From the IMG/VR virus record IMGVR_UViG_3300022723_000242, positions 1 to 57,394 of that record: a DNA stretch of 57,394 nucleotides, one strand, 5' to 3'. The notes under the pieces are model-generated. The model was not told where the DNA came from and did not search any database. It was given only the letters and a program-made list of their open reading frames with translations. Origin of the DNA: a virus. The first letter of the stretch is position 1; every line of letters begins with the position of its first letter. Both the position numbers and the translations under genes were made by a program. Below, piece by piece: positions 23,828 through 57,394 of the stretch.

Positions 23828-24371
23828 CAAGCACCTTCGCTAACTCCTTAAATATCTCTTTCGCCACCGAAACAATCTTCAACTCTTCCTTCGCAGCCTC
23901 TTTGTACTGCTTAAAAACCTCCTCGTTCCCATAGGTATACGCGAGCATACAACGGAAAAGCGGAGTAAACGCGTTCGACCGATCCTCTACTGTGAGCTGA
24001 GAGCCGTAGATACTTGAGAGCCGGCGGAAAAGGTCAACCTGCGATTTATAGTGCCTAATATCTTCGATACACAATATGTTGTGGTCGGACTCCACCGTAC
24101 CGAATCTATCACAGGCGATCGCTGTTGCCCACTTCATACCAGAAGTTCTCATATCGTGCACTCGCGACCGTACGAAGTCGATCGGCGCCATTCCGTGTTC
24201 TTTACATATCGCAGCAGCTTTATAGAACTGCATCTTACTTTTACGGAGGATCGGTATCTCTGGGGCTATCTCTTTGAAAGCATCTAATATCTCGTTTGCA
24301 AGCTTTACGAGCTCTGGATCAGGAACTCGGTGATTCCCCTCCTCATCTATAATCTCATCGAAAGTTAACAT
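23820..24371 (-). CDS. Small protein between helicase genes, unknown; possible helicase loader (183 aa)
   Basis: Not recognised by motif. The ATG at 24371 (MLTFDEIIDEEGNH) overlaps the end of the upstream helicase; a GTG at 24392 is another choice. The protein is helical, with two Cys-containing stretches (IACDRFGTVESDHNILCIED). Its place directly before the DnaB-type gene, translationally coupled to it, is where phage helicase loaders or gp59-like proteins often sit. That role is inference from context only. Confidence 0.6.
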   Translation of the reverse strand: MLTFDEIIDEEGNHRVPDPELVKLANEILDAFKEIAPEIPILRKSKMQFYKAAAICKEHGMAPIDFVRSRVHDMRTSGMKWATAIACDRFGTVESDHNILCIEDIRHYKSQVDLFRRLSSIYGSQLTVEDRSNAFTPLFRCMLAYTYGNEEVFKQYKEAAKEELKIVSVAKEIFKELAKVLDD

Positions 24372-25831
24372 GTCTTGTTCTCGATACTCCACCCTTTGCT
24401 GCGATACACCTTGAATCTATTTAGTGAACGCGCGTACAAATTCCCACTAAACTTATCGAAGAAATCTATAAGTATGCCGTAATCTTTCTCTTTTTCTCGT
24501 CCGAGTCTACTAAGTCTTCCCGGGATCTGTGTAGACTGTATCGGAGTTGAAACGGCATCAGCGCGTACGAGAACCGAAAGGTCCTGAAAATCGACTCCCT
24601 GTTTCCACACCTTCGTTGCGATAACCTTTTTGAGTCTCCCGAGCTCGAACATACGTTTATAATATCCCCGCGACTTCTTAGTACATATCTTTTGCGCCCG
24701 TAACATCGACCCGTTTCGTCGCATTTGGGCAACTCGTCTCGGATCGGGTTCGGCTGAAACAACGGTGTAGTCGTCGAGATACTGCCCAAGAGCATAGGCG
24801 TGCTCGGTCTTATCGACCATAATCAGAATCTGCTCGTTGTCGCCAACATCCTTTTCTACTTTTCTTACTACACGCGCAATGAATTCGTTTCTTGTACGGT
24901 TCGTCCATATACCGAGGCGATCTGCCTTCGTATGATTCTCTATTGCTGAAACGTCAGGCCCGTCTTCTACGGTGTAAGCGTGTACTTTAATAGGAGCAAC
25001 GTTTCCGCTCTCTACGCACTCTTGATAGGAAACACGGACTAATACCTCCCCGAATAAAGCCTCTAAAAACCTGTCTGCCTTGTCGCTTCTACCTTCCGGA
25101 GAAGCGGTAAATCCGAAGAACTTTGCCCGATAGAATCTATGAAGCTTCTTTATGAAATTCGTCGTGAGAATCGCATGACACTCGTCTACAAGAACCAAAC
25201 TCGCGTGCCTATCGCACTTGTGTAACGACTGGCTTACCGCAACTGTAACCCTATCTGGTTTATTCTTTCCGTCGCCGACCATTCCCACCCCCGGTATATC
25301 GAAACGTAATCCATCGTAGATGTCATTTGCGATATCCACGGACGGAACAGTTACGATAATAGGGGACTCCGGATAAACTTTTGCGATCTGCTTAACTATA
25401 AAGGTTTTACCGAACGCCGTCGGGCAATCGATAGCACCCCCGTTGTAAGCCAGAATGGCGGCCACGACTTCTTTTTGCCGTGGCCGCCATTCTATATGTC
25501 TGATCGCTTCAAGATTTGGTTTCGGAAGACCGTGATCGACACGGTTCTCGGTGGTGTATGGAATCTTTCGTTGCTTTAGCGTCTTTTCGATATGAGCACC
25601 GTACCCTGAATAGGCACAGAAAACTTCTTTTCCATCGTCTTCGGCGTACCAGTACATCTCTACCTTTTTGCCTATCCGCTCGACTTTACGATACCGTCGA
25701 CCGGTCGACCTACTGGTTTTCCATACCTCTTCGCTAACTACTTTTTCTACCGTACAGTGCTCTTCGAAAAGCTCACCCAGTTTCGCTGGGTATAGCGCCA
25801 AAGCTCTACCGATATACGCGAGATACGCCAT
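24365..25831 (-). CDS. SF2 helicase, UvsW-like (488 aa)
   Basis: The superfamily 2 motifs are in order: Q/I region WRPRQKEVVAAIL, motif I CPTAFGKTFIV (Walker A), motif Ia TVPSVDIAND, motif II LVDECHA (a DECH box), motif III FGFTASPEGR, motif V KVWKQGVDF and motif VI IPGRLSRLGR. UvsW-type helicases unwind recombination intermediates and R-loops and move replication to the recombination-dependent mode. I start at the ATG at 25831 with ACGGAG upstream; a GTG at 25858 is possible. A perfect 15-bp inverted repeat lies within it (25452-25493). Confidence 0.87.
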   Translation of the reverse strand: MAYLAYIGRALALYPAKLGELFEEHCTVEKVVSEEVWKTSRSTGRRYRKVERIGKKVEMYWYAEDDGKEVFCAYSGYGAHIEKTLKQRKIPYTTENRVDHGLPKPNLEAIRHIEWRPRQKEVVAAILAYNGGAIDCPTAFGKTFIVKQIAKVYPESPIIVTVPSVDIANDIYDGLRFDIPGVGMVGDGKNKPDRVTVAVSQSLHKCDRHASLVLVDECHAILTTNFIKKLHRFYRAKFFGFTASPEGRSDKADRFLEALFGEVLVRVSYQECVESGNVAPIKVHAYTVEDGPDVSAIENHTKADRLGIWTNRTRNEFIARVVRKVEKDVGDNEQILIMVDKTEHAYALGQYLDDYTVVSAEPDPRRVAQMRRNGSMLRAQKICTKKSRGYYKRMFELGRLKKVIATKVWKQGVDFQDLSVLVRADAVSTPIQSTQIPGRLSRLGREKEKDYGILIDFFDKFSGNLYARSLNRFKVYRSKGWSIENKTC

Positions 25832-25832
25832 T

Positions 25833-26510
25833 TTACTCCGTTTCGAATAGCTCTCCACTCAGAAGATTAAGAATGAAGTCAGGCTTGATAATCATCTCCA
25901 TCTCTCTAACCCACTTTGCGAACTGCGCAACCATCAGTCCTGCGGCGATGTTCGCCGAATAGATAGTGCTTCTTGCAGTACACTCTCCCTCGAAAGCTTC
26001 ATCATCTGAAAAGAGTGTCTCTTCGTAGTCCTCGTAAGTCGAATCATCGTAGGCGGTCACGATTCTCAGCGTCTCAGCGGCCATCCTGCCGTCGACAAGG
26101 AACGGCTTCCGATCCATCAAAGATTCATAGATGAACCTTCGAGTCTCGATGCTATCGACGCACATGAAGACCGCATCACAATCGCCGTCTACAGGATTGT
26201 AACGTCGATCTACCGCCTCGATGCTGATCTCCGGGTTGTTCGATCGCGCCACGTCAGCTGTCGCTTCGACTTTCTTCTTCCCGATGTCCGACTCGTAATA
26301 GCCCTGAGGACCGAGATTCACCCTTTCGATATCGTCGTGATCTATCAGTTTCAGACGTCCGACACCTGAGGCGGCAAGCTGAAGTGCAGCTTGCCTCCCG
26401 ATAGCGCCGACACCGATCACGCATACCGTCAAAGTAGCGATTTTATCGGGAGGTATCAGAGATGCCTGTCGGCTATAGCGCTCTTCTACAGTGGTCTGCT
26501 CTTCGCTCAT
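25833..26510 (-). CDS. E1/ThiF-like ubiquitin-activating enzyme A (225 aa)
   Basis: This is the adenylation fold of E1, ThiF and MoeB. The nucleotide loop is VCVIGVGAIGRQAA at about 30. It is followed by LIDHDDIERVNLGPQGYY (the DxD..N..Q signature) and DIGKKKVEA, with its lysine, and the DAVFMCVDSIETRR strand. Near the C-terminus GECTARSTIYS has a Cys also present in the second E1 of this window (CGART), a candidate catalytic thioester Cys. It lacks the paired CxxC zinc sites of classic ThiF. It overlaps the JAMM protease gene by 4 nt, so the two are co-translated. It should activate the C-terminus of a ubiquitin-like protein with ATP. Confidence 0.9.
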   Translation of the reverse strand: MSEEQTTVEERYSRQASLIPPDKIATLTVCVIGVGAIGRQAALQLAASGVGRLKLIDHDDIERVNLGPQGYYESDIGKKKVEATADVARSNNPEISIEAVDRRYNPVDGDCDAVFMCVDSIETRRFIYESLMDRKPFLVDGRMAAETLRIVTAYDDSTYEDYEETLFSDDEAFEGECTARSTIYSANIAAGLMVAQFAKWVREMEMIIKPDFILNLLSGELFETE

Positions 26511-28471
26511 TCCTCTTCCTCCTTCTGGTCACTGATCATCACGGCTTTGAGAGCTTCTACGTCGTAACCCTTCAACCTCACCAGCTTATTCACCGCCTCG
26601 TAAGCTTCTCTCTCTACATCTGCTTTGGCTTCCATTTCGTACTTGAAGAGTCTCGTCTCGATGTCCTTCTCACTCGCTCCGAAATAGTTCGCTGCCTTAA
26701 GGTACGCTATTACGTTATCCCACGCTTCCGAGAAGAAGTGATCGAAACTGAGATTTATCTTACGCTTACCGTCCGCCAGCTCCTTCTCTTCCAAGAAGAA
26801 CCCGGTCTCCAAATCTTCGATTTCCTTATCCAAAAACTGTTCGTCACCCTTATCGTCCTCGCTGCCCACTGTCGTAAGCTCCTTCGTATCATCTTCCTCT
26901 TTATCGAGTGACTCTTCAAGCGAAGTAATACCGTCGTTTATCTCTTCCATCGTCACATACTCGTCCTCCGAAAGCCAGATCAGCCTCCTGTTCAGGCAGA
27001 ACCAAGGAACGATTACATGACACCGTTTACCGAAGATATCGGTAAAACCGTACATGTTCTCGTTCCTGCCATCCGCTATCTTCAGAAGCTTCTGTTCGGC
27101 TTCGTGACGCTCTTCCAAAATAGCTTTGAGGACGGGAACGGGGTGGTCGACCATCATAGTGAGTGCTCTCGAATCGACTGTATACTTCTTGCCATGACTC
27201 TTGATATAGCAGAGGAACTTAGCGGTCTCTTTGCCCTCGTGCTTCTTGTACGGAACCATCACCGCCCCGAGTTTCTCGAGAACCTTCTTATCCGAATGAA
27301 TGAAGAACGAATTCTTACGGGGCATCTTCAGCAGATTGATATAAAGCTGGTTCGGCATATCGTAGCAGACGTGTTCAGGATACAGGCGAATCTCCACCTT
27401 CCTCCCGTGCGTCGTACTATCGCGGGAATACCTTCTCTGACCGCCGTAACCGTCTCCGTAACCGTATCCACCGCCGTACCACTCATTATCTAAAATATAA
27501 TCATCATCGATGTAAGACTTCGTGGAGTTCGAGCTCGATCTCTTATCGCTTATCAGCGCGTTTACGCCGCGGCTTCTCGTACCAGGGAACCTCGTTACTT
27601 TTGCTGGAGTCGAATACGTTCTGATAGTGACCTTCTCACGGATCTCTTCGAGCCAGCTGTCGTGGTCCGAACCCTCGAAAGGTTTGGACCAGTCTATATC
27701 TACGTCGAGATGCTTGTTGATCGAAACGCCGTGCGCAGTATCAGCCCGCATACGCGCGTAGACCTCTCCTGATTTCGCAAGAATGAACATCACTGCCCAG
27801 TCTGCGCTTCCGAAAGCGTCTCTGAACGTATTTTCGTCCTGTCCCGAAGGCTTCGTGCATCTATGCGGATGCGTATGTATCCAGATCCTCATGCAGTTGA
27901 TCGGCTGACGATCGTGCTTTACGAACTGCTCGGTCATGAAATCGTTCAACGCCTCGTCATCGAAATCAACGAAAGCTGCACTCGCCTTCTGCTTGACGAT
28001 ACCTATATCCTCGATGAGAAACGGATTGTCTGCTGCCGTAAGTGCCATTCCGCCGATTTCGGTATCGACGGAGTGACACATGAACTGGAGCTTCGCCCAA
28101 GCATACGGCGTGAAATACAGGGCGTCGACTCCCTCGGAATACTCGAGTATAGGCCTCACGGGAGAGGCTGGAAGATCCTCTGCCTCTTTTCTCTTCTCTT
28201 CAGGCGCCGTCACCGGTATCGACGGCCTCGACGACTCCTGCTTCGCCTGCTCGGATTTCTTCTCGATCTTCGTCGGTTCTTTCTCTTCCGTCTTCTTCTC
28301 TTCCTTCTTCTTCTCTTCCTTCTTCATCTCTTGCGGCTCTTCTTCCGGAGAAGAAGTCTCTGAGCCGCCGGAGGGTTTCCTGGATCCTTTCTCTTTCTCT
28401 TTCGAGGACGCCTTCCGGCGCGTTACCGGCGCGCGTCGCGTCTTCTGTTCGGAATCTTTGGATTTCGTCAT
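26507..28471 (-). CDS. JAMM/JAB-domain protease A with long C-terminal extension (654 aa)
   Basis: Residues about 110-250 are a JAB/MPN domain. The metal site is complete: Glu in DTEIGGMALT at about 137 and WIHTHPHRCTKPSGQDENTF (HxH-x7-SxxD) at about 199. JAMM proteases remove or process ubiquitin-like proteins. The first 90 residues are Lys/Glu-rich and disordered, and their DNA also encodes the end of the upstream gene. A GTG near 28212 would avoid this overlap and keep the whole domain. A Gly/Tyr-rich linker (about 325-345) leads to a large unknown C-terminal part, which ends in helices. E1-A follows directly. Confidence 0.88.
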   Translation of the reverse strand: MTKSKDSEQKTRRAPVTRRKASSKEKEKGSRKPSGGSETSSPEEEPQEMKKEEKKKEEKKTEEKEPTKIEKKSEQAKQESSRPSIPVTAPEEKRKEAEDLPASPVRPILEYSEGVDALYFTPYAWAKLQFMCHSVDTEIGGMALTAADNPFLIEDIGIVKQKASAAFVDFDDEALNDFMTEQFVKHDRQPINCMRIWIHTHPHRCTKPSGQDENTFRDAFGSADWAVMFILAKSGEVYARMRADTAHGVSINKHLDVDIDWSKPFEGSDHDSWLEEIREKVTIRTYSTPAKVTRFPGTRSRGVNALISDKRSSSNSTKSYIDDDYILDNEWYGGGYGYGDGYGGQRRYSRDSTTHGRKVEIRLYPEHVCYDMPNQLYINLLKMPRKNSFFIHSDKKVLEKLGAVMVPYKKHEGKETAKFLCYIKSHGKKYTVDSRALTMMVDHPVPVLKAILEERHEAEQKLLKIADGRNENMYGFTDIFGKRCHVIVPWFCLNRRLIWLSEDEYVTMEEINDGITSLEESLDKEEDDTKELTTVGSEDDKGDEQFLDKEIEDLETGFFLEEKELADGKRKINLSFDHFFSEAWDNVIAYLKAANYFGASEKDIETRLFKYEMEAKADVEREAYEAVNKLVRLKGYDVEALKAVMISDQKEEEE

Positions 28472-30272
28472 GGATACGGATGCTTTCCTCGTCTGCGGTC
28501 AGGATGATGAAGCCGGTATCGGCTAAAACGGTTTCCCAGAATATGGCCTTCTCTCTCAGAGAGGTATGGCGATCGACGTAGCACATGGTTCTACTCAGGT
28601 TAATCTCCCAGCATCGCAATCTCTTGACCACGCTCGCAGCCCGTTCGGCAGAAACGTCTTCGCCGACGAAACTATAGAGGCGGCAATACTGCGTCGTCAT
28701 CTCACCTATATGCGTTCCGTAAAAGTTCCACAGCCACGCTTCCATGATAGGCACCTGCGCAAGGAACGACTGAGACATTCCGAGATTATCGGGGTCGCAT
28801 ACCTGGCAACAGTTGGACATTGCGAAATCGTCTCTTCTGATATTTTCTTCGGCTACTCTCGATCCGCAGCTGCAGACGACGATATTCGGAATACGCGGAA
28901 AAGAGCGGCGACTCCTCTGGGTTATCATGCGACTTGTAGTGACGCGACCTATTCCTTCTACTTCACAGGTGCCGACGCCGTCCTCGTTGGGCTCTCTGAC
29001 CCAGCTCACACATCTGGTACACGCGTAGTCCTTCTCTCCGAGCTCTATCTTATGATCGAACGCGTCTTCGCCTTCATGAACGTGATTACAGTTCGGGCAA
29101 GGGAACTTTCCTTCGTTGACGAGATTTTCGACTCGCGAAAGCTCCTCAATGCACAGAGGACATCCGACATTGCCTCCACGCGTAGTCCTGTCATCGAAAA
29201 CACCCTCGTTGAAACAGAAGGTACAAGTCTTGACGAAGCGATGTTCGTGAAAGTTCCCATCCTCGTCTTCATATGCGCACGACTTGTGAAGCGCTGCACC
29301 ATTCGAAGAACAATTGACCCTTTCGTCATCTTCACCGATAATCTCGCCACACCCCGCACACGACGGGCGAGGATCCCAGGCGCTGATCGCTCTGTAGGGA
29401 CCTGATCCGAGTGTATTCAGGATGCTGTTTACGAGTTGGAAAACCCCTGAAAGTACGCCCTGCTGGAGAAAGCTCAAGATACGGTAACCTGCCTCTCCTG
29501 TGCACATACCGTTACCGGATATGTGAGGGTGTATATTATCCCCGTCATCGTCTTTTGGGTAACGTGGAGACGGCGATGAGAGGCGCAAACCGCTATGAAT
29601 TGCAGCCGAGTTTCCAGACCGTAAAGCATCGTTCAACACCTGGAAAGAGTACGTGATAAAATAGTTTCCGAAGTCAATAATTCTCTTATTGTGCTTAATA
29701 GATGCCGGCTTTGTAAGTATTACGATCTTGTCATTAAAAACTTCCGCCTCTGGTTTACCTATAACTGCCAACTTTTTGTCTTTTTTGATATCTTCGTAGA
29801 AAATGGGGTAAACCCCTTCGTAAACGTCACCGACACTCATATGGTAGAAGTCTTTATAGATCGTCATAAAATCGAAAAGAGACGACTTCTCTACTCCACG
29901 GTCTACTATTTCTCCTATCGTCTTTTCCATAGCTTCCACGTATCCAGAAGTCTTCTGAACTTCCTTCATGAATTTCACGGAACTCTTTTGATTTAACTCT
30001 CCAACTGATCTTCGGAGATTATTGATCGATCGCGAGAATCCTTCAATCTCTGACTGTATCAACTGCCTGTTTCTATTGAGAGCCGTCTTACCTTCGTTCT
30101 CACAGAGAATACTATAGAATCTTGCAGCGAGCATCAAAAGCCTTAGGAACCTACGCTCTTCGAGCCCTTCGCACGGGTATATGGAGAGATCATCACCTAC
30201 GAACTTGTACTTCTGGATCTGATGAGGAGTAGGAACGAACGTTCCTTGCAGAGTATCCTCGATTGAGGCCAT
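28200..30272 (-). CDS. RING-like multi-zinc protein, candidate E3 ligase (690 aa)
   Basis: I start at the ATG at 30272 (MASIEDTLQGTF) with AAGGAG upstream. The N-terminal 300 residues are helical. At about 305-375 a treble-clef/RING-like pattern appears, with CAGC, a Cys twelve residues on, then H-x2-C (LHKSCA), CTFC and CPLC. Further zinc pairs follow: CPNC with CTRC (about 390-420) and CSCG with CCQVC (about 465-490). The last 100 residues are Arg/Glu-rich and disordered. In bacterial ubiquitin-like operons, RING proteins accompany E1, E2 and JAMM genes, so an E3 or adaptor role is a reasonable inference. It is not proven, because the Cys spacing is not a canonical RING. Confidence 0.7.
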   Translation of the reverse strand: MASIEDTLQGTFVPTPHQIQKYKFVGDDLSIYPCEGLEERRFLRLLMLAARFYSILCENEGKTALNRNRQLIQSEIEGFSRSINNLRRSVGELNQKSSVKFMKEVQKTSGYVEAMEKTIGEIVDRGVEKSSLFDFMTIYKDFYHMSVGDVYEGVYPIFYEDIKKDKKLAVIGKPEAEVFNDKIVILTKPASIKHNKRIIDFGNYFITYSFQVLNDALRSGNSAAIHSGLRLSSPSPRYPKDDDGDNIHPHISGNGMCTGEAGYRILSFLQQGVLSGVFQLVNSILNTLGSGPYRAISAWDPRPSCAGCGEIIGEDDERVNCSSNGAALHKSCAYEDEDGNFHEHRFVKTCTFCFNEGVFDDRTTRGGNVGCPLCIEELSRVENLVNEGKFPCPNCNHVHEGEDAFDHKIELGEKDYACTRCVSWVREPNEDGVGTCEVEGIGRVTTSRMITQRSRRSFPRIPNIVVCSCGSRVAEENIRRDDFAMSNCCQVCDPDNLGMSQSFLAQVPIMEAWLWNFYGTHIGEMTTQYCRLYSFVGEDVSAERAASVVKRLRCWEINLSRTMCYVDRHTSLREKAIFWETVLADTGFIILTADEESIRIHDEIQRFRTEDATRAGNAPEGVLERERERIQETLRRLRDFFSGRRAARDEEGREEEGREEDGRERTDEDREEIRAGEAGVVEAVDTGDGA

Positions 30273-30336
30273 AACGCTCCTTATGGTTTTCGATCTCTCG
30301 ATCTCTCGATCGTGGTGAGATGGGGTAAACAAAAAC

Positions 30337-30367
30337 GAGGGGAGGCAGACGAATGCTGCCTCCCCTC
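30337..30367 (-). terminator. Rho-independent terminator after the tri-Ubl gene
   Basis: A perfect 12-bp stem, GAGGGGAGGCAG with CTGCCTCCCCTC, has a 7-nt loop. On the minus strand it is followed by GTTTTTG. It lies directly after the stop of the tri-ubiquitin-like gene and before the RING-like gene, so the tri-Ubl can be made on its own short transcript and at higher level. Confidence 0.85.
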
Positions 30368-30374
30368 TAACTGC

Positions 30375-31112
30375 TCAGGCGCCTTTGACGTTCTTCGGAG
30401 AGATCGTCACCGAGTCGCCGTTCTCGAGAACCCGATCGCGGGTGGCGGTCTCACCGTTGAGCTTGATGATGTGAGTCCGCTCCGGATCGTCACCCTCGGT
30501 CTCCCGGTGAAACAGCTCGCCGAGCGTGGTCCCCTGGGGGATACGCCGACGAGCCGCATAACCGGCACCGGAACCCTTGATGAGGGTGATCTCGACATCC
30601 GACGCAGCCTTGATGTTGCGCGGAGTGACCGAGATATGGTTGTTCGCCCGGAGAACCTGCGAGGCCGGGGGACCCTGAACGCCATCGACGCTGATGACGT
30701 GATTGCGAACGTCGAAATGACGACCGAGACGCTCATAAACGAACTGCTCGAGAGTGGTACCAGGACGGATGTAGTACCAATCGGCGAAACCGGTGCCGTG
30801 CGGAGCGATGAAAGCGACGCGGTCGCCACCATCGCGGTCGACCGCACCATAACCACCGACGGTACCGCCGAGGCGCTGGCCGTAACCCGGGTAACGCGCC
30901 TCGTCGGTAGCGGCGATCATGGCGACACGATCGCCATCCGAGAGACGATCGTCACCGGTAGCGGAGCGACCGTTGAGAGTAAACCGGAAGTGCTCCGGAT
31001 TACCCGTCGGCCAGATCTCGCGGAAGAGACCGGCCATGGTGGTGCCGTAGGGGACCTCGCGCGGGGATCCGAATCCGGCGCCGTCGTCGTTGATGAAAGT
31101 GATTCTGGGCAT
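30375..31112 (-). CDS. Tandem ubiquitin-like (beta-grasp) polyprotein with three domains (245 aa)
   Basis: Three beta-grasp domains of about 70 residues stand in tandem (about 1-70, 96-170, 171-245), joined between 1 and 2 by a Gly/Tyr-rich linker (71-95). Each has the same skeleton: an opening strand ending near a Gly (DDGAGFG, PHGTGF, KGSGAGY), a turn before the helix (VPYGTTMAGLF, IRPGTTLEQFV, IPQGTTLGELF), a 'H...LNG' or 'H.ISVDG' strand and a final 'GD.V.I' strand. The C-terminus is SPKNVKGA, and domain 2 ends TPRNIKAA. A ubiquitin-like modifier with a short cleavable tail is the best reading, to be processed by one of the JAMM proteases. It has no terminal GG. A strong terminator follows. 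Confidence 0.85.
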   Translation of the reverse strand: MPRITFINDDGAGFGSPREVPYGTTMAGLFREIWPTGNPEHFRFTLNGRSATGDDRLSDGDRVAMIAATDEARYPGYGQRLGGTVGGYGAVDRDGGDRVAFIAPHGTGFADWYYIRPGTTLEQFVYERLGRHFDVRNHVISVDGVQGPPASQVLRANNHISVTPRNIKAASDVEITLIKGSGAGYAARRRIPQGTTLGELFHRETEGDDPERTHIIKLNGETATRDRVLENGDSVTISPKNVKGA

Positions 31113-31126
31113 TATGTGACCCTTTT

Positions 31127-33490
31127 TTACAGTCTGATGATGTTATCGAAGAAACCACTTAATGTCTCTTCGTGTGTAACCAAGAGGATCTGTTTACCGG
31201 TCGCGCCGGCCAGCTCCTTCAACTTCAGTAAAAGTCTCTGTAGATGTATGATGTTATCTTTGTCTAGATAGACTGATGGCTCATCTAAAACTAGCAATCC
31301 GACGCGTTTGGCGAACGTATCACCCATCGCGAGTCTAAAACTTGTACTCGCAATTATCCTTTGTCCACCCGACAACCTCTTCGCCGGATGTATTCTATCG
31401 TCGAATTTAGCTATAAATGACAGCTCTTCGTCGAGCTCCATAGTAAAATGAGCCTCCCACGTAGACAGATAGTAGTCGACACGCTTGTTCAGTACCGTCG
31501 CGTATTCTCTCATGGCGAGGGACGGAAGTGCACTTACATGAAACACGTCTCTTACTTTTTTACAGAATTTCACCCATTCTTGATCTTTCTTTTCCCTCTC
31601 ATATTTCTCATGAAGGCTCTTAAGCGAAGAAGAGTACTCCTTATATTTCACTTCCAGTCCAGTGAGGGCCTCTATGAGGCTCTTACGAAAATTTAGTCTC
31701 TCAGCAAGAACGTCCACTTTCTCCTTCGCCTCAGCTATTTCCTCATCACTAAAACTGACGGTATTACTTTCTATCTTTTCTTTCCTTTCATTAGCTCGCT
31801 GTAACGAGGATTCTATATTCTCTATTTTCTGTTCCTTTAACTTAAGTTCGCTCTCGAGATCACTCAATTTCGTAAGAACCTTATCGTATTTATCGACCGT
31901 GCTCTTAAGCTCGTCGATATCCACGTCATGAGACTCTACTACTTCGTTATTGGATATCTGCTCTTCTACTGCTGTTTTCTTTGCACGAAGCTCGCCGAGC
32001 GTTTCTTTCTCGGACCTGAGCATCTTCAAGTCATTCTCGAGCTCCTCTACTTCTTTTTCGATTTTCTTTCTTCTCGAGGATATTACCTCGCGGGCCGTCT
32101 TAATGTAATACTCTATTTTCTTTTCGAGACCAGAGAGATACTCGGTCAACTCGCGTACCTTCTCATCGCGTTCTGCGCGAAGAGCCTTTGAAACCTCCGA
32201 AATCGACCCTTCTAGCTCCTCTATTTCATTCTCAACAAAGGCCCTCTTAACGTCGTCTACAGGAGCTCCGCATGCGTAGCAGCTACCCTCGTCGATAGAC
32301 TCGAGCATGAGATTCCTACCCTCTAACTTCTTCTGAAGATCGTCCAGCTCTTCCGAAAACAGCTCCTTTTTCGTCAGATCATCGAGCTCAGCTGCGATGT
32401 TCTGATATTCTTCTTTATATTCTTTTTCCTCTTCTGTCTCCGGGTATGGGATCTTTTCCTTCTCGATGTCTACTAATTGATCGAGCTTGGAACGCTTCTT
32501 TCGTAAGAGATCTTCCTTAGACTCTATAATATCGAGAAGGTCATCTCGCGACTCTGTGAGATCCACTATCGCTTTATCTATCTTTACGAGTTTCTCTTTC
32601 AAAGATTCGACCGTTTTGATCTGTTTCTCTCTCGACCTGATGTCGAGAAGTTTCTCCTGAGCATCCTCTACGAGCGGTTTCTTCGAGTCACGAAGATACG
32701 CCATTGCCTCTATATGACTGGATATTTCAAGACGCTCATGATTAGATTTGTAGAGCTCTCGTTCGAGGCCGTCTATTTCCTTTTTGGTATCATCCAATAT
32801 GACCCTATTTTCTTGCGAAATCATGAACTCGTTGAGCTTATCTCTATAGGTTTCGAGACAATCTATCTCGTCATCTACTGAACTTTTATGTCGAGTGGCA
32901 TCTTTCAGCTCTTCGTCTACTTTTTCAAATTCTTCTTCGATTGCCTCTATCTGTGCGTCAAGACCTATCGTTAATATATAACTGTTAATCTCGTTACCGA
33001 GGGCTTTTTCAGCTTCCGCAGCTCTTTGGAGCCCTACGGTTTGCTGCATCTCTTTCAAACGTTGGGTACGCGTATCGAAAAGTATCTTATCTATATCTCC
33101 TTGTGGAGGAAAAATATTGTTCAAAAGCGCGTCAGCACTCGCGCCGAGAAGCTCTCTCAAATACTGCTCGATTTCAGTCTTTCGACGATAAGTGTCTTCC
33201 GGGGTGATCAGACGCTGAGAAGAACCAGCTCCAAGAGTACGTTTCAGCTGATAATCAGTGTCACCGTACGTGAACCAAATCTCTACACTACCGCGATCTT
33301 CGCCCCATGAAACATTATCGTCTTTATTCCCCGACATAGATACCTGACCAGTAAATCCGAATCTAATAGCTTCGAGTATCGTTGATTTACCGGAACCATT
33401 CGTACCAATGATCCCGTTTATACCTTTTTCTAACTCGATATCCATATACTTATGAACGCCGAAGTTCTTAATTTTTACTCTCGTAATCAT
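31127..33490 (-). CDS. Rad50/SbcC-like recombination ATPase, gp46 homologue (787 aa)
   Basis: An SMC-type ATPase with Walker A IGTNGSGKSTIL at about 33. Long coiled coils run from about 165-400 and 430-650 on both sides of a zinc hook CYACG at about 402. The signature motif is RLSGGQRIIAST and the Walker B motif is LLVLDEPSVYLD. With gp47 it forms the SbcCD/Mre11-Rad50 nuclease complex that trims DNA ends for recombination, in T4 gp46/gp47. Unusually, gp46 and gp47 are separated here by four ubiquitin-like pathway genes. Confidence 0.92.
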   Translation of the reverse strand: MITRVKIKNFGVHKYMDIELEKGINGIIGTNGSGKSTILEAIRFGFTGQVSMSGNKDDNVSWGEDRGSVEIWFTYGDTDYQLKRTLGAGSSQRLITPEDTYRRKTEIEQYLRELLGASADALLNNIFPPQGDIDKILFDTRTQRLKEMQQTVGLQRAAEAEKALGNEINSYILTIGLDAQIEAIEEEFEKVDEELKDATRHKSSVDDEIDCLETYRDKLNEFMISQENRVILDDTKKEIDGLERELYKSNHERLEISSHIEAMAYLRDSKKPLVEDAQEKLLDIRSREKQIKTVESLKEKLVKIDKAIVDLTESRDDLLDIIESKEDLLRKKRSKLDQLVDIEKEKIPYPETEEEKEYKEEYQNIAAELDDLTKKELFSEELDDLQKKLEGRNLMLESIDEGSCYACGAPVDDVKRAFVENEIEELEGSISEVSKALRAERDEKVRELTEYLSGLEKKIEYYIKTAREVISSRRKKIEKEVEELENDLKMLRSEKETLGELRAKKTAVEEQISNNEVVESHDVDIDELKSTVDKYDKVLTKLSDLESELKLKEQKIENIESSLQRANERKEKIESNTVSFSDEEIAEAKEKVDVLAERLNFRKSLIEALTGLEVKYKEYSSSLKSLHEKYEREKKDQEWVKFCKKVRDVFHVSALPSLAMREYATVLNKRVDYYLSTWEAHFTMELDEELSFIAKFDDRIHPAKRLSGGQRIIASTSFRLAMGDTFAKRVGLLVLDEPSVYLDKDNIIHLQRLLLKLKELAGATGKQILLVTHEETLSGFFDNIIRL

Positions 33491-33516
33491 GCTATCTCAC
33501 TTCCTCATAGATGACG

Positions 33517-33540
33517 CCGGGGAGAACGATTCCTCCCCGG
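33517..33540. terminator. Hairpin between Ubl-B and gp46 genes
   Basis: A perfect 8-bp GC-rich stem, CCGGGGAG with CTCCCCGG, has an 8-nt loop. It sits in the 63-nt gap between the single-domain ubiquitin-like gene and gp46. No T-run follows, so it may be an attenuator or an RNA processing site rather than a full terminator. Confidence 0.5.
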
Positions 33541-33553
33541 TATTTCTGGCCAT

Positions 33554-33805
33554 CTATCGTGTCTTGATGCGAATTTCGAACTCGTTCCCCTTCACCTGAG
33601 GGGCCAGGATCACCGTCATCCCCGGAGTGGCGCGTTCGCGCTCGGGGTGATCGATGTGGTTGCCGCCCGCCCGGATCTCGAAGTTCCGATACTCCGGGCC
33701 GTTGAGCCCAGCCGCTTCGATGGCATCCGCGACGGAAGCATCGTCGGGGACGGTGACGGTGCGCATGGGAGAGCGGGGAGGCGCTCCGATGGAAATGTCG
33801 ATCAT
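33554..33805 (-). CDS. Single-domain ubiquitin-like (beta-grasp) protein B (83 aa)
   Basis: A small beta-grasp-type protein. It has a first strand pair (MIDISIGAPPRSPMRTVTV), then a helix DDASVADAIEAAGL, strands EYRNFEIRAGG, and a GMTVILAPQVKG end followed by a tail NEFEIRIKTR. The VKG after the last strand matches the ends of the three-domain protein (NVKGA, NIKAA), so cleavage after this Gly is plausible. The adjacent genes are E1-B, JAMM-B and the E2-like gene, the usual company of a ubiquitin-like protein. MoaD/ThiS-like sulfur carriage is a less likely alternative. Confidence 0.75.
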   Translation of the reverse strand: MIDISIGAPPRSPMRTVTVPDDASVADAIEAAGLNGPEYRNFEIRAGGNHIDHPERERATPGMTVILAPQVKGNEFEIRIKTR

Positions 33806-33831
33806 AGTTTGTTCTTCCCTTTTGAAGTTGG

Positions 33832-34539
33832 TTAGACGAGCACCGGTTTCGGCGAGTTCGTCATAGTCATTGCCGGGCTGGCAAAAAACAGCATTTCTAC
33901 CTCTGGTCGCTCTTCTTTTCGTTCGAGATTATACTTATAGTACCTGAGAAAAGCCCACACAGCGTAGCCGCTCACCAACTCAGCGGTGGAGCCGACTACG
34001 GTCCGAGCACCGCACATGCTCTCCTCTGCTTCGTCATCGTCGCAGAACGTCTTTTCGTAAAATGAAACTTCCGCCGGTTCTGACGGAACTACGGAATAGA
34101 CTCTTCCTTCGCTGATTCCCATCCTCGTTTCTACGACGAGTTCTACGTGGGCTTTGTACTTCAAAGCACCTTTCCAAATCTCTTTTCTCGAAGCCATGGT
34201 ATCCGTGAGAAGGAACACATATGCTCCCAGATCGGACTCTTTCGTAGCAGCCTCTTCGTGAGGGGCGATACTAATCCCCGTCTGCTCGTGAATAAGCTCT
34301 TCCAACGCACGTACTTTCGGCTTACCGACATCTTTAAGTCCGTAAGCCTGATTAGCTATATTATGAGACTCTATCTTATCGAAATCCCACACGTGAAGAT
34401 TCGTGATCCCGAGCTTCGCCAACGCGAGCGCGATTCGGGAGCCGGTAGCTCCGGCCCCTATCACGTCGACCCGCTTGCTCGCGAACTCCTCGGCGTCGAA
34501 TACCTTGATATGCCGAAGAGTATCCACGGTATCGCTCAT
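33832..34539 (-). CDS. E1/ThiF-like ubiquitin-activating enzyme B (235 aa)
   Basis: The adenylation domain is clear: VDVIGAGATGSRIALALAKL (nucleotide loop), then VWDFDKIESHNIANQAYGL (DxD..N..Q), VGKPKVRAL with its lysine, and YVFLLTDTMASR. A Cys in MCGARTVVGST aligns with the Cys of E1-A and is the candidate active site. The two E1s are paralogues that differ through most of their length, so the phage may activate two different modifiers or use one enzyme per branch. It overlaps the JAMM-B gene by 1 nt and sits just after the single-domain Ubl gene. Confidence 0.9.
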   Translation of the reverse strand: MSDTVDTLRHIKVFDAEEFASKRVDVIGAGATGSRIALALAKLGITNLHVWDFDKIESHNIANQAYGLKDVGKPKVRALEELIHEQTGISIAPHEEAATKESDLGAYVFLLTDTMASRKEIWKGALKYKAHVELVVETRMGISEGRVYSVVPSEPAEVSFYEKTFCDDDEAEESMCGARTVVGSTAELVSGYAVWAFLRYYKYNLERKEERPEVEMLFFASPAMTMTNSPKPVLV

Positions 34540-35207
34540 TACTTACTCCACCGATCACTGAACTGACCACCCGTCCTACGAGGGGTATAGCTGCTGCCTT
34601 TGTGCTTGTTACTTCCGTAATACGAGCTCGACGAGAAAGTACTGACCTTATCACTGATTTCCTTCTCCCAGAATTCTCTTCTACCATCGTCGACGGTAGC
34701 CTCTATCGACCACGGGCAGTCTATGACCGCCAGATTCGCGTCGAAGAAAAATACAGTGAACTCTGCTCTCTTCTTCTTGTTGAAGATGCCGCGGATAAAC
34801 CACGGACATCCATCGCCTCTGAATATTTCGATCTGGGCATCGTCTTGCGACGAAGGAGACGTATCCATGTTTACGTGAGAATGGCCCCAGAAGAAAAGTT
34901 TGTTGGCCCTGTAGTCTGGCGACTCCGGATTGATTCCTTTCTCGGCGTCCTCCATCGCAAGACGCGTAACAGCATCTGCGTACCCCTCAGGGGACATCTC
35001 GGTAGTGGTCGAGTGGCACTGCTGCTTCAGCAAGAGAATTTCTTCGATGAAAAGATTGCCGTCGTCTCTACGGTGAGCTGTTCCCATCCACCCCACTTCG
35101 GTCGTAACTTTGTCGACGATGGTCCACATGTCGTAGTACGCCTGCTGAGAGATGATTATCTCGGGAACGCCCCCTACTTCTGTTTTGAAACTATGGGGGA
35201 GAAACAT
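34539..35207 (-). CDS. JAMM/JAB-domain protease B (222 aa)
   Basis: A compact JAB/MPN protein with a full zinc site: Glu in TTEVGWMGTAHR at about 36 and FFWGHSHVNMDTSPSSQDD (HxH-x7-SxxD) at about 107. A beta-rich core follows, and the C-terminal 50 residues are Ser/Tyr-rich and disordered. JAMM enzymes cleave isopeptide or peptide bonds after ubiquitin-like domains. The likely job is trimming the Ubl precursor or removing it from targets. Unlike JAMM-A it has no large extension. It is encoded between the E2-like and E1-B genes with very tight spacing. Confidence 0.92.
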   Translation of the reverse strand: MFLPHSFKTEVGGVPEIIISQQAYYDMWTIVDKVTTEVGWMGTAHRRDDGNLFIEEILLLKQQCHSTTTEMSPEGYADAVTRLAMEDAEKGINPESPDYRANKLFFWGHSHVNMDTSPSSQDDAQIEIFRGDGCPWFIRGIFNKKKRAEFTVFFFDANLAVIDCPWSIEATVDDGRREFWEKEISDKVSTFSSSSYYGSNKHKGSSYTPRRTGGQFSDRWSK

Positions 35208-35212
35208 CTATC

Positions 35213-36745
35213 TTATCCCTCTCTTTCTACGGTATCTGCTGCGTCTTCCGTCGCAGCAGCGGGTACGGTGTTTTCTGTAACCGGGACATCATGCCCTTCT
35301 GTTACAACCTCTGCGGCTTCAGCAACCTCTTCCACAGCTTCTCTACGTTCCTTACTCGGGTCAGTAGCTATCGGCCACATGTCGATATGGGCGCCGGCGG
35401 TATCGTCCACATTTACGTGCTCGATAAAACTCAACGCCATGTTGATAGCCGCGCTCCACTCATAACTCGAAATGAGCTGCGGAAACACCTTCGTCATGTT
35501 CCCGAGACACGCTCTCCCGTCGGGGAAGAGGTGGGGACCGTTCATTTGAGCTTTATACGCATTTATCTTTCTCGTTTTGTTATAGAAGTATACATCGCCT
35601 CTCAGCTCATCGATAACCAGCTTGAAAGCCCCGATTTCGTGTACCTTATCGGTCCTCGGGTCGGTACAGAAAAGAGTTTTCGTATGAACAGCGAGACTGT
35701 TACCACGGTACTCCACCCTCTCGATTTTCGGCATCTCGGTAAGCGCGTCGAACTCTTCCGAAAGCATCTTGTTAATGTCATCTGAATGCTTATCGAACGT
35801 TTCCACCCGTACTCGAGCTTCCTTATGTTCTCGCAGAGTACGCACCATCTCCTGCTGCAACTCTGTAGCTCTAGTTTCGAGATCCGTCATCTGCTTCTTA
35901 AGATTTTTCTTCTGCATCTCTACACGCTTACCACACTGCTTTATATAACTAGTCTTTACTTTATCGAGATCGTATTCGAGGCCATCACGAAGTTGCGTTG
36001 CGACACTTTCTGCGATCTTTTCGAGAATAGCAACCTCACTTTCACTGCCGGTCTCAACAGCGTCGAAATAGATGTAGAGATTATATTCATCGAAAGCAGC
36101 GACTTCATCACCTTCCTCTGTTATAACTGGATTACCGTCCGCCCATATCCCAAGGGAACTACCATCGACGCAAGGAACTGGTATTCCCCACATCTGCGGA
36201 GGAACAACATATCCATGGTCTGGCGCACTGACCGGAGAGGACCATACATGGACGATGAAAGTGTTTCCCTCAGTAACCGTGGACGCCTTTACGGCGTGAG
36301 GGACCGTAATGCCGATGTTCTTTCGAACTACCGGCATCAGCCTCTCCTCGAATATCTCCTTGATTCGACTCTTGAATTTTTCGGGCGCTGGGCTGTTCCA
36401 GCTATTGATATCGACCGTGAATCTTTCACGAGGATCTACATCGTGATGTGCGGGGGAATTGTCCGGATTCATCAGAGCCAAGAATTCGATCTTTCGCCCC
36501 TCCGGAATCTCTTCCCCAAGGTCTTCGTTAGTAGGAGTAGCGAGCGAGGTACAGTTGTACCCATAATCAATTAACTTACTCACCTCTTCTTTCGGGAAAC
36601 GCCAGCATTCGATAGTGAACTCTTCTTCATCGTCGGTAGCCGGAAAAGTCAACGAGTCCTCTTCAACCTCTATTTCCAGCTCTCTCAGCAGATCGCTCTT
36701 CAGCGAATCTCTTATCACGTATACCAGTTCGGCGGTGTCCGTCAT
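35213..36745 (-). CDS. E2-like (UBC/RWD-fold) protein with coiled coil, PRTRC-B-like (510 aa)
   Basis: The N-terminal 230 residues are mixed alpha/beta and unknown. A coiled coil follows (about 260-320). Then a C-terminal domain (about 330-445) contains the E2-type signature NGPHLFPDGRACLGN, with the putative catalytic Cys at about 413 in a Cys-Leu-Gly context. A helix follows (EWSAAINMALSFIEHV). Bacterial E2-like proteins, including protein B of the PRTRC cassette, share this pattern around the Cys. The last 60 residues are acidic and disordered. It would accept the activated modifier from an E1 by thioester transfer. An alternative is an inactive RWD-type scaffold, but the Cys is present. 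It overlaps gp47 by 4 nt. Confidence 0.75.
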   Translation of the reverse strand: MTDTAELVYVIRDSLKSDLLRELEIEVEEDSLTFPATDDEEEFTIECWRFPKEEVSKLIDYGYNCTSLATPTNEDLGEEIPEGRKIEFLALMNPDNSPAHHDVDPRERFTVDINSWNSPAPEKFKSRIKEIFEERLMPVVRKNIGITVPHAVKASTVTEGNTFIVHVWSSPVSAPDHGYVVPPQMWGIPVPCVDGSSLGIWADGNPVITEEGDEVAAFDEYNLYIYFDAVETGSESEVAILEKIAESVATQLRDGLEYDLDKVKTSYIKQCGKRVEMQKKNLKKQMTDLETRATELQQEMVRTLREHKEARVRVETFDKHSDDINKMLSEEFDALTEMPKIERVEYRGNSLAVHTKTLFCTDPRTDKVHEIGAFKLVIDELRGDVYFYNKTRKINAYKAQMNGPHLFPDGRACLGNMTKVFPQLISSYEWSAAINMALSFIEHVNVDDTAGAHIDMWPIATDPSKERREAVEEVAEAAEVVTEGHDVPVTENTVPAAATEDAADTVEREG

Positions 36746-37836
36746 GAACCTTCGGTCTCCTGATAGAATTGGTCCCTGCGTTCTCCTATTACGTCGAGAA
36801 CGCTCTTCGACTGACCGAGCAGGTCAGCCGCAAACGAATAACTCTTTGGTTCTTCATCTGGATCGAAGAATCTTGAAAGTAGCGCTTCTATACTTAAACA
36901 TTCCTCATCATCAACTATTGGATCTTCTATATCATCTTTAAATGTGAAAGGTTCGGTTATGATTATAACTGAGCCGTCCTCGAAGGATTCTCTGAACTCC
37001 AGTATATCGCTCTCTTTCTCCGGAGACGCCACAACCCAGGCGAACGGAGGAAGTTTCGGATTCGACTCGACAGCCTCGTTGACCCATGATCGCAGATCCT
37101 CTAGTTCTTTATCAGATCTCACATAGAGTTTCGTCATAGGCCTATAATCAATTGGAAGTCTCTCAACCGAAAGATCGTCATTTACGACGATACATGATTT
37201 CGAACCTATCTCCGGCGCTTCTCTCGGATGGCTCGAGCCGGTATAATACGCCTTCTGTCCTTCGCGTATTTTATGTTCCCATTCTTTATGTATATCACCC
37301 ATTATAGTGGCCGGGATGCCTTCCGGTATCCAATCGAGATCGCAATTCCACGCCCCTTCGAATGACAGCATCTGACGCACCGCTTGATGAAGAAACAGGA
37401 CGTCTGGCTTCGGCACGCAGTCTCTCAGGCTCATTATAGCGTCTTCTATTTTATCGCGCGTCATATTGTCGAAAGCAACGCATCCGATACCGTTTATATC
37501 TACTTCCTCACCGTCTCCGATATGAATAGGCCAGTCGTGGACTGCGGAGTACCAGGGTATCGGGCGTCGATCGTGATTCCCTTGAATCGCGTATACTTCA
37601 ACGTCGTTATCCCTGCATCTATCCATCTCTCTTCGAAAAAATCGTATAATAGCTGGGTCTGGCTCGACTGTATCGAATATGTCGCCTACGAGTACGACCG
37701 GAACGCCGAGAGCTATACCTCTATTTATCAAAGAGGTGAATCCTAGAAACGAATCGCCTTTTACTTGCTTGAATTTACGCCAAATATAGAAATCAAGATG
37801 AAGATCTCCGAGAGCTATAAATGCCGGATTAGCCAT
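36742..37836 (-). CDS. Mre11/SbcD-like nuclease, gp47 homologue (364 aa)
   Basis: A calcineurin-like phosphoesterase core holds all metal ligand motifs: LGDLHLD, LVGDIFDTV, IQGNHDRR, VLFLHQAVRQ and IMGDIHKEW. The C-terminal part is the capping and partner-binding region. It forms the nuclease half of the gp46/gp47 complex that resects DNA ends for recombination-dependent replication. I start at the ATG at 37836, which has AGGAGG upstream and overlaps the stop of the preceding gene (TGATG). The frame's earlier ATG at 37875 is inside that gene. Confidence 0.9.
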   Translation of the reverse strand: MANPAFIALGDLHLDFYIWRKFKQVKGDSFLGFTSLINRGIALGVPVVLVGDIFDTVEPDPAIIRFFRREMDRCRDNDVEVYAIQGNHDRRPIPWYSAVHDWPIHIGDGEEVDINGIGCVAFDNMTRDKIEDAIMSLRDCVPKPDVLFLHQAVRQMLSFEGAWNCDLDWIPEGIPATIMGDIHKEWEHKIREGQKAYYTGSSHPREAPEIGSKSCIVVNDDLSVERLPIDYRPMTKLYVRSDKELEDLRSWVNEAVESNPKLPPFAWVVASPEKESDILEFRESFEDGSVIIITEPFTFKDDIEDPIVDDEECLSIEALLSRFFDPDEEPKSYSFAADLLGQSKSVLDVIGERRDQFYQETEGS

Positions 37837-38525
37837 CAACGTCCTCCTCGGGGTACAATTCCGCGTTTCGCCCAACTTCGTTCAATACGAAACGTTTCAA
37901 ACCTACGAATATACTCGTTAAACCTCGAGTGCCTACGAAACTTATACGGGTGCTTCATAGTATCTTGCCAATCATGTATAAGACTCTCTTTATCGCTTCC
38001 TTCGTATTCGAGCTTTTCTACCGCTCCTATCACCTCCGACAAAGGATCATTCGCCTGCTCGTGTACATAAGACACTCCTGGTGTATCCTCATCGTGAACC
38101 TCTCTACTCGCGCTATATATGCCTGCTATTTTATACCCGATATCATCGATCACGCCTATAAGGTTATCAAAAGAAATACATTGAGCTATGAGTCTATATT
38201 TTCTACTTTTTAGTTTATCGAGATATCTTTTGTTAAGTGTATCTTCCCAGTGGACCTCGTCAGTTACTCTCAAAAATAATAAATCTGATCGAGCATCCAT
38301 GATGAAGCTAATAAGATGTTCTTGTTTACGGTGCCAACACGTCGGGCAAAATGGGTTCCCACAGTAATTTGACCCTCTATTCCGTAAACGCATGTATTCG
38401 AACCCTCTACACCTCGTTCGAGCTCTCTCGTTATAATCCTTTTGCATTCCTGAAAGGTATCTATACACGTTCTTATTACGTACTCGAAATTGCCTACCGT
38501 AATATGCTACCATCGCATCTATCAT
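37836..38525 (-). CDS. Zinc-binding protein of unknown function (229 aa)
   Basis: At about residues 54-66 it has YCGNPFCPTCWHRKQEHL, a CxxxxCxxCxH cluster of the type seen in replication-initiation or primer-binding proteins. The rest is mostly helical and basic with many Arg and Tyr. It is coupled to gp47 by a TGATG overlap and may be a DNA-processing accessory. I cannot name a family. Confidence 0.6.
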   Translation of the reverse strand: MIDAMVAYYGRQFRVRNKNVYRYLSGMQKDYNERARTRCRGFEYMRLRNRGSNYCGNPFCPTCWHRKQEHLISFIMDARSDLLFLRVTDEVHWEDTLNKRYLDKLKSRKYRLIAQCISFDNLIGVIDDIGYKIAGIYSASREVHDEDTPGVSYVHEQANDPLSEVIGAVEKLEYEGSDKESLIHDWQDTMKHPYKFRRHSRFNEYIRRFETFRIERSWAKRGIVPRGGR

Positions 38526-39742: not shown

Positions 39743-39791
39743 CGAAAAGCTCCTTGCATTTTCGCAATTGTGCAATAAAAGTTGCGGCATA
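39743..39791. promoter_or_regulatory. Divergent spacer between fic and terminase genes
   Basis: The spacer is 49 nt and must hold the ribosome binding site of fic (AAGGAG on the minus strand) and, most likely, promoters for both directions. It contains GCAATTGTGCAAT, which has partial dyad symmetry and could be an operator. I see no strong -35/-10 pair. The terminase ATG at 39792 has no clear ribosome binding site. Confidence 0.35.
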
Positions 39792-56620: not shown

Positions 56621-56634
56621 TTTATAAGGAAACC

Positions 56635-57375: not shown

Positions 57376-57394
57376 CCGTTCATGCACGAAAGTT

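Follow-up and report, generated by a model that had tools for sequence, protein, structure and literature searches.

In the CBASS systems that carry Cap2 and Cap3, an E2-E1 fusion lies beside a CD-NTase, and in archaeal sampylation the E1 passes its ubiquitin-like protein (Ubl) directly to the target, in an E2-free transfer. Ubl conjugation in bacteria is known mainly as anti-phage defence or from mobile elements (in part, PMC1779556; PMC11354881). The locus considered here is carried by a phage. It lies on the minus strand at 25,833-36,745 of IMGVR_UViG_3300022723_000242, a record of 57,394 bases taken here in full (the window), and its open reading frames (ORFs) comprise two E1s (E1a, E1b), two JAMM proteases (JAMM1, JAMM2), a triple and a single Ubl-like protein (3xUbl, Ubl1), an E2-like protein (E2b), a zinc protein (labelled E2/RING) and a Rad50-like gene, the place and single strand being those given by an earlier sequence-only reading. 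The phage probably encodes two parallel Ubl conjugation pathways, lying with genes of replication and repair.

The Bil operon (BilA-D) resembles the window in combining Ubl, E2, JAMM and E1, in its tandem Ubl and in a JAMM that trims the Ubl, BilC acting on BilA (as outlined in the review PMC11354881). BilD, in the same outline, differs in having an inactive and an active adenylation half plus a Cys domain, whereas E1a and E1b, of 225 and 235 amino acids (aa), show one ThiF stretch each. At the spacing of the BilB CEHH residues (+6, +8, +13), K, F and S follow C413 of E2b, and Y, I and Q follow C277 of E2/RING.

Bacterial operons with these parts, plus a Ubl/JAB pair in the lambda tail, were described in 2006 (Iyer 2006, PMC1779556), where rows of the class table name bacteria. 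Classes 6d (Ub, JAB, E1, E2) and 6e (polyUbl, JAB-E1, E2-like, metal-binding protein) are alike in gene content, and operons in that account likewise have two to three tandem Ubl domains. As characterized there, class 6e differs by a JAB-E1 fusion and an inactive E2, whereas the window has separate E1 and JAMM genes and a Cys in both E2-like candidates; class 6d has a helical protein and an E2 lacking the usual His; here the four enzyme and Ubl types are present and a His precedes the Cys. The lambda-type tail genes TAPI (Ubl) and TAPK (JAB-NlpC) are likewise a phage-borne Ubl and JAMM, but in a tail locus, and their description in the relevant part of PMC1779556 includes no E1 or E2. In Caldiarchaeum, an operon of E1, E2, RING and ubiquitin together with Rpn11 is likewise complete with RING, JAMM and a short-tailed precursor Ubl, from which the JAMM (Rpn11) removes a 9-residue tail prior to E1 activation; that system differs in being archaeal, in its ubiquitin with a di-Gly end and in its RING, a separate small protein (from the account in PMC5654768).

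Profiles for other known cassettes score low. PRTRC_ThiF gives the two E1s 29.5 and 28.3 bits against 144.75, and PRTRC A, B and C are not among the NCBIfam matches listed at E 0.1. The Cap3 profile reaches 13.1 bits against 200, the E1 and E2-like genes are separate, and no CD-NTase was found among 30 window proteins scanned with Pfam.

Two Sets of Conjugation Genes

The minus-strand order, 5' to 3', is metallophosphatase, E2b, JAMM2, E1b, Ubl1, Rad50-like, 3xUbl, E2/RING, JAMM1, E1a and helicase (Table 1). Adjacent genes of this row overlap or stand no more than about 100 bases apart, and they may be co-expressed. The zinc protein has a second E2-like motif, and therefore two sets are proposed rather than one: gene order suggests a set A of 3xUbl, E2/RING, JAMM1 and E1a, and a set B of E2b, JAMM2, E1b and Ubl1, with partners presumably paired within each set. 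By homology, the E1, JAMM and 3xUbl parts of the predicted toolkit are real, Ubl1 and E2b probable, and the second E2 with its RING-like finger plausible.

Table 1. Features of the locus and adjoining genes (positions in the window; aa, amino acids).
Feature	Position	Strand	Description	Evidence
E1a	25833..26510	-	E1/ThiF, 225 aa, set A; Cys177 in CTARST	Pfam ThiF 5.5e-30
JAMM1	26507..28471	-	Predicted JAMM protease, 654 aa, set A; H199/H201/S209/D212	PADLOC JAB 5e-6; motif
E2/RING	28200..30272	-	Candidate E2-like and zinc protein, 690 aa, set A	E2-like motif HPHISGNGMCTG...GPY, then Cys-rich region
Hairpin	30337..30367	-	Terminator-like, in the 3xUbl/E2-RING gap	12 pairs, 9 G-C, then GTTTTTGTTT
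3xUbl	30375..31112	-	Three ThiS-like repeats, 245 aa, set A; C-terminus SPKNVKGA	Pfam ThiS 4.9e-10
Rad50/SbcC-like	31127..33490	-	Between set A and set B	phrog_77 1.2e-40
Ubl1	33554..33805	-	Single Ubl-like protein, 83 aa, set B; ...APQVKG then NEFEIRIKTR	Weak RnfH matches
E1b	33832..34539	-	E1/ThiF, 235 aa, set B; Cys176	Pfam ThiF 4.7e-21
JAMM2	34539..35207	-	Predicted JAMM protease, 222 aa, set B; H109/H111/S119/D122	Motif; homology to JAMM1
E2b	35213..36745	-	Candidate E2-like protein, 510 aa, set B; Cys413 in PHLFPDGRACLGN	Motif; second look with VIA
DNA helicase	24365..25858	-	Overlaps the E1a end	phrog_16 1.7e-42
Metallophosphatase	36742..37875	-	4-base overlap with the E2b start	Pfam Metallophos 1.8e-7

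In the proposed pathway, JAMM would trim each Ubl precursor to a C-terminal Gly (...VKG|A in 3xUbl, ...VKG|NEFEIRIKTR in Ubl1). E1 would adenylate the trimmed Ubl and hold it as a thioester on C177 or C176, and an E2 would take it over, through C413 in set B and C277 of E2/RING in set A, where the finger would aid target choice or positioning. The Ubl would be attached to amines of target proteins, from which JAMM could also take it off; likely targets are phage replication and repair proteins, or host proteins of that stage, and not tail proteins.

The hairpin between 3xUbl and E2/RING might fix a high ratio of Ubl to enzyme. Terminator-like sites in 22-40 kb stand at chance level (17 against 15.2, sd 4.4), as do sigma-70 promoter-like sites (17 against 19.0).

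E1 and JAMM Enzymes

The E1 and JAMM identities are solid as predictions. In agreement with the two E1/ThiF proteins of the sequence-only reading, E1a and E1b have the ThiF domain, GxG, DxD, Arg, Lys and Asp of the E1/ThiF/MoeB superfamily, and keep the Arg finger, the N and Q residues and the Cys at the E1 position. They match each other with 32% identity. PDB matches of E1a include PaaA, UBA1, MccB, ThiF, MoeB and BubCD; E1b shares ~33% identity with its counterpart in Xanthomonas phage PhiXhv-12, and a hidden Markov model (HMM) of 11 E1s from crAss-like and Flavobacterium phages finds both (3.7e-31 for E1a, 2.5e-24 for E1b).

E1 and Ubl could instead be sulphur carriers for thiamine, molybdopterin or cysteine/tRNA sulphur transfer, an auxiliary metabolic module in which JAMM releases the carrier. 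ThiF is the best NCBIfam model for both E1s, 3xUbl matches ThiS, and phage E1s are often labelled thiamine biosynthesis protein in records. Against this, all listed NCBIfam ThiF/MoeB matches fall under the cut-off (best 81 and 67 bits against 159), and the 30 Pfam-scanned proteins include no ThiG, ThiH, MoaE or CysM, whereas plasmid homologues sit in thiamine operons. A 19-row tree likewise sets the phage E1s, as a supported clade with long branches, apart from five plasmid ThiF/MoeB-type proteins; the E1-position Cys is present in 18 of its 19 alignment rows, ThiF and MoeB rows included. To our knowledge E2-like and RING-like proteins have no use in sulphur transfer, and we regard the carrier role as quite unlikely. 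It was also considered whether the E1 gene had been duplicated recently; the tree does not join E1a and E1b as sisters, the fork being left open where long branches meet.

JAMM1 consists of a charged N-terminus, the JAMM domain and a long C-terminal part, and its ORF shares 272 bases with that of E2/RING. Both proteases fit the JAMM/MPN+ class by site and similarity, JAMM1 through the JAB profile (Prok-JAB 0.0031 for a fragment) and JAMM2, whose own Pfam Prok-JAB match is weak (0.2), through homology with JAMM1 (z 11 over shuffles). JAMM2 is also related to the JAMM of the phage contig MT835544.1 (z 24; tblastn 1e-8). Across all six frames of the window, the full HxH-x7-SxxD site claimed earlier for two proteases is indeed present at two places, each within a JAMM gene, and it is absent from six frames of seven other pieces of an overlapping 180 kb contig. 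In a list of 196 chosen ORFs, from which JAMM2 was apparently dropped by the overlap filter, one has the motif, where shuffles expect 0.12. The Glu (E138; E37 or E10) was assigned through alignment alone. A tblastn search of 50,697 phage records with JAMM1 found only weak similarity over 36 residues (E 0.2), in two Gordonia phage NadineRae records.

Ubiquitin-Like Proteins

3xUbl belongs with the ThiS/Ub families by its Pfam match, which covers two stretches of the protein. As fragments, domain 1 matches ThiS (0.00031) and domain 3 Ub-Mut7C (0.013); domain 2 matched no family, and for this reason the middle repeat was assigned by eye, so that the earlier claim of a three-domain polyprotein holds by profile for domains 1 and 3. 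Of nine PDB matches of 3xUbl, eight were plant-virus-type coat or capsid proteins (best 1.2e-5) and were taken as spurious. An RLGG after the first repeat (aa 80-83), before a Gly-rich linker, is a possible internal cleavage site.

The identity of Ubl1 is moderately supported, as is that of E2b. Its best matches, all weak, are to the RnfH ubiquitin-like family (0.087 in Pfam, 0.077 in NCBIfam), its best PDB match has E 1, and in MT835544.1 a small ORF that adjoins those for the E2-like protein, JAMM and E1 is related to it (z 6.3; 0 of 300 shuffles). The single Ubl of the sequence-only reading thus keeps a cassette-borne relative and lacks a significant family match.

Ten residues trail the VKG of Ubl1. 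By the parallels of Rpn11 with the Caldiarchaeum precursor and of BilC with BilA, the JAMMs may cut off such a tail. In crAss-like and Flavobacterium phages, 10 of 11 genes at the Ubl position have [KR]SG[AG] before a long tail, which resembles the ends of the window Ubls; the sole gene lacking it, an ORF of L023 taken as Ubl, is probably none, and in the cassette of cr106 a Ubl was not recognised. With an HMM of the three 3xUbl repeats, the PhiXhv-12 Ubl scores 2.1 (44 of 1000 shuffles at or above).

E2-Like Proteins and the RING-Like Finger

In E2b, an N-terminal region and a coiled coil precede the E2-like domain, whose Cys413 stands in ACLGN. Family matches of E2b are unconvincing: NCBIfam CdsZ (0.00083) falls on the coiled coil and phrog_4770 (0.0021) on aa 144-205; PADLOC PDC-M59B (0.0046) covers the E2-like part. 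Residues 318-476, folded alone from the single sequence, gave a low-confidence model (pLDDT 49.5). With this model, the 13 best rows of VIA-align are ubiquitin E2s, UBE2L3, UBE2S and UBE2L6 among them (Z 4.3-4.9 over 103-110 residues), polo-box domains following just behind at 4.1 or below. The comparison had no proper negative control and a Z below 8 can reflect a common arrangement, so that these values prove little alone; it is the uniformity of the top rows that points to an E2-like fold.

The zinc protein carries HPH-x7-CTG (H268 and C277, numbered from the TTG start) just ahead of a Cys-rich region with six CxxC, of which the first is RING-like. Its start is probably ATG 30272, which AGGAG precedes, rather than the listed TTG 30332, which sits at the hairpin. 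Prok-RING_1 matches a fragment with E 0.00023 and 21.5 bits, below the gathering score of 29.1, and the finger is therefore called RING-like only. The zinc protein of the sequence-only reading is upheld in that form, and its second E2-like motif had been overlooked. We hold with moderate confidence that this protein is a fusion of E2 and RING, the second E2 being suggested by motif and gene order.

The pattern PH-x4..20-C[LTIVM]G, composed after both proteins had been viewed, occurs in two of the 196 ORFs, E2b and E2/RING, where shuffles expect 0.24. The proteins at the E2 position in crAss-like phages, FpV4 included, have HSH and C-x-G in all 11 rows. A composite H.H-C.G-GPY is found in 7 of these 11 crAss-like and Flavobacterium E2-likes and in 3 of 100,000 shuffles; it is illustrative only, because it was written after viewing the zinc and crAss-like proteins. 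Comparisons between E2-like domains with hhalign gave probabilities of 1% or less, and the E2 core alignment, searched as a profile against the PDB, found none. When VIA was run with a model of the E2/RING part, 14 chains were aligned and four listed at Z of at least 2, none of them an E2.

Cassettes in Other Phages

Adjacent E1, E2-like, JAMM and Ubl genes occur in MT835544.1, Flavobacterium phage FpV4 and several crAss-like phages, crAss001 among them, and four-part sets are therefore not unique to this phage. The genes are annotated there as hypothetical, metalloprotease domain or thiamine biosynthesis; PQ006092.1 has an "E1 enzyme family protein". In crAss001, gp79, gp78, gp77 and gp76 (4214-8624 of L024) correspond in order to Ubl, E2-like, JAMM and E1; gp75 is an extra gene between E1 and the uracil-DNA glycosylase (UDG). 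Matching cassettes occur in L007, L008, L021-L023 and L025-L028, adjoining primase and UDG where these are named.

The crAss-like and Flavobacterium (Fipvunavirus) cassettes are like set A in the order Ubl, E2-like, JAMM, E1 and in lying near replication genes, and their E1s are clearly homologous to those of the window. They differ in having one E1 and one JAMM gene each, a Ubl with a long C-terminal tail, and E2-likes without a RING match in the two scanned. MT835544.1, an unannotated faecal phage contig, is like set B: contiguous ORFs (3257-8291 of L036) encode Ubl, a coiled-coil E2-like protein, JAMM and E1, of which JAMM, E1 and Ubl are homologous to those of set B. It differs in the place of the Ubl gene, in the Ubl end, which has no C-terminal Gly, and in its single set, a count that covers 14.7 kb of the 35 kb contig. 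A reverse-transcriptase-like ORF follows this cassette and might belong to a diversity-generating element. Xanthomonas/Erwinia jumbo phages (PhiXhv-12, 6811-10687 of L005) encode an E1, a Ubl-like protein with a GG end and an E2-like protein of 892 aa whose ends are Cys-rich.

In the tblastn search, relatives of E1a were found in 88 records (88 places), of E1b in 42 (42 places) and of the cr111 E2-like protein in 74; E2b, 3xUbl and the zinc protein had no relatives there. Contig scans, which require shared 8-residue words and hence detect close relatives only, returned solely the overlapping IMGVR_UViG_3300023202_000336 when viral contigs were scanned with E2b, E1b, E1a, JAMM1, the helicase and the zinc protein; viral contigs scanned with the PhiXhv-12 and cr111 E2-likes, and genome contigs scanned with E2b and 3xUbl, gave no close relative.

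The doubling of E1 and JAMM pointed out in the sequence-only reading is confirmed by comparison with 12 whole phage records searched by profile: all 12 have a single E1 match and 11 have JAMM matches at one gene, so that none is doubled as this phage is, and by our reading the duplication would extend to E2 as well. Four of these records contributed to the E1 profile and three to the JAMM profile, and the PhiXhv-12 record represents four near-identical ones.

The main texts of a jumbo phage survey (PMC7824862) and of two crAss papers (PMC7886860, PMC6235969) were also consulted; the former has no JAB, Ubl, E2-like protein or ThiF and, apart from a reference, names ubiquitin solely in connection with eukaryotic viruses, and the latter contain no cassette terms. 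No report of a phage E1-E2-JAMM-Ubl set was among the matches listed in a literature search, which covered subscription papers and preprints thinly, so that absence in print is not established. The earlier statement that a phage with all parts is undescribed may therefore stand as far as printed descriptions go, and falls as to the genomes, since four-part sets exist in crAss-like phages, FpV4 and MT835544.1.

Replication and repair genes are named near the cassette in 11 of the 12 records: nine crAss-like or similar phages have primase and UDG, FpV4 has toprim and UDG, and PhiXhv-12 has DNA ligase and topoisomerases. All neighbours in the twelfth, DAC15, are annotated hypothetical. This setting speaks against a Bil-like weapon aimed at the virions of competing phages, and against a counter-defence in which the JAMMs strip host-attached Ubls while E1 and E2 act as decoys. 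That Bil systems modify phage tails (as set out in part of PMC12135933), and that PADLOC E1-E2 defence models match both E1s (1.4e-16, 9.2e-16), would favour such a role; the phage, however, has Ubls of its own and no CD-NTase among the 30 Pfam-scanned proteins, and we judge it unlikely.

Several results weigh against two conjugation pathways. 3xUbl and Ubl1 are not detectably alike (the three-repeat HMM scores Ubl1 at -1.4, with 753 of 1000 shuffles equal or higher), and the relative of Ubl1 in MT835544.1 ends in NALAA. HMMs of the crAss-like Ubl, E2 and JAB match the window proteins no better than shuffles, and the PhiXhv-12 record has no JAMM match. Foldseek gave no significant match for the low-confidence E2b model (best E 0.71, unrelated), and E2b has no detectable sequence similarity to the E2-likes of MT835544.1 (z 0.7) and PhiXhv-12 (z 1.2) or to E2/RING (z 1.3). 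The E2 part of E2/RING gave no usable model (pLDDT 35) and no E2 family match.

With fold evidence weak for E2b and none for E2/RING, and with no sequence similarity detected between these E2-likes and their counterparts in PhiXhv-12, MT835544.1 and crAss-like phages, both E2-like calls could be chance motifs, only E1, JAMM and Ubl being real and E1 transferring directly to the target. However, the 13 best rows for E2b are all E2s, E2/RING occupies the position of the HSH/C-x-G protein of crAss-like phages, and E2b directly precedes JAMM2 and E1b; E2-free transfer is accordingly considered very unlikely. The E2-like protein of the sequence-only reading keeps its Cys413 in ACLGN and its E2 top rows, with a model of low confidence. 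Two conjugation pathways are thus still preferred: homology, motifs and gene order favour the toolkit, and the activity proposed for it is predicted from sequence.

Source Phage and Gene Neighbourhood

A baseplate wedge match among the phage proteins and a weak terminase-ATPase match (39669-41510) indicate that the source is a tailed phage. The window is overlapped by the 180,134-base contig IMGVR_UViG_3300023202_000336, with 98.5-99.97% identity in the pieces compared (3,590-24,335 being left out). The stretch at ~51.7-57.4 kb is noticeably divergent among those compared (98.5%, with a break near 51.8 kb), and 56,263-57,394 has no match in the fetched piece; either strain variation or a contig-end difference may account for this. 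Of eight proteins from another part of this contig, five were without match in a PHROGs scan, which suggests a divergent lineage.

The DNA polymerase of the phage matches phrog_17, and several annotated relatives are named DNA polymerase I. A UvsX-like recombinase, RuvB and a phage helicase are also encoded, and a further KaiC-like ATPase and a weak DnaG match (0.0028) are among the replication and repair neighbours. The metallophosphatase is possibly Mre11/SbcD-like, because the Rad50-like gene stands in the same row.

Two TnpB/Cas12f-like ORFs lie at 13947-15035 and 49052-50776 (Pfam TNB domain 6.9e-18 and 9.3e-7), and the plus strand carries glycosyltransferase-like genes at 54996-57375 (Pfam 1e-4 and 9.2e-6). 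An ORF at 13813-15687 of L013 matches phrog_25354, of unknown function (7e-44); its match to an RNA polymerase beta subunit family is weak (3.1e-7).

Implications

By its predicted gene content the locus doubles a cassette that goes largely unrecognised in well-known phages, and adds a RING-like part to it. A wider view is offered tentatively and is somewhat doubtful: at least four groups of tailed phages would hold Ubl cassettes tied to the replication and repair block, a viral counterpart of the SUMO/ubiquitin control of replication forks, and in the present phage a pair of distinct pathways would operate side by side, of which one has a fused E2-RING and a triple Ubl, the latter perhaps overproduced through the terminator after its gene.

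If the two-pathway reading is true, phages themselves would use protein tagging, perhaps while the genome is replicated. A Bacteroides host of crAss001 is in culture, and the function of the crAss001 cassette is therefore directly testable. The small, separate E1, E2, JAMM and Ubl proteins would be a simple setting in which to study how one cell keeps two Ubl pathways apart.

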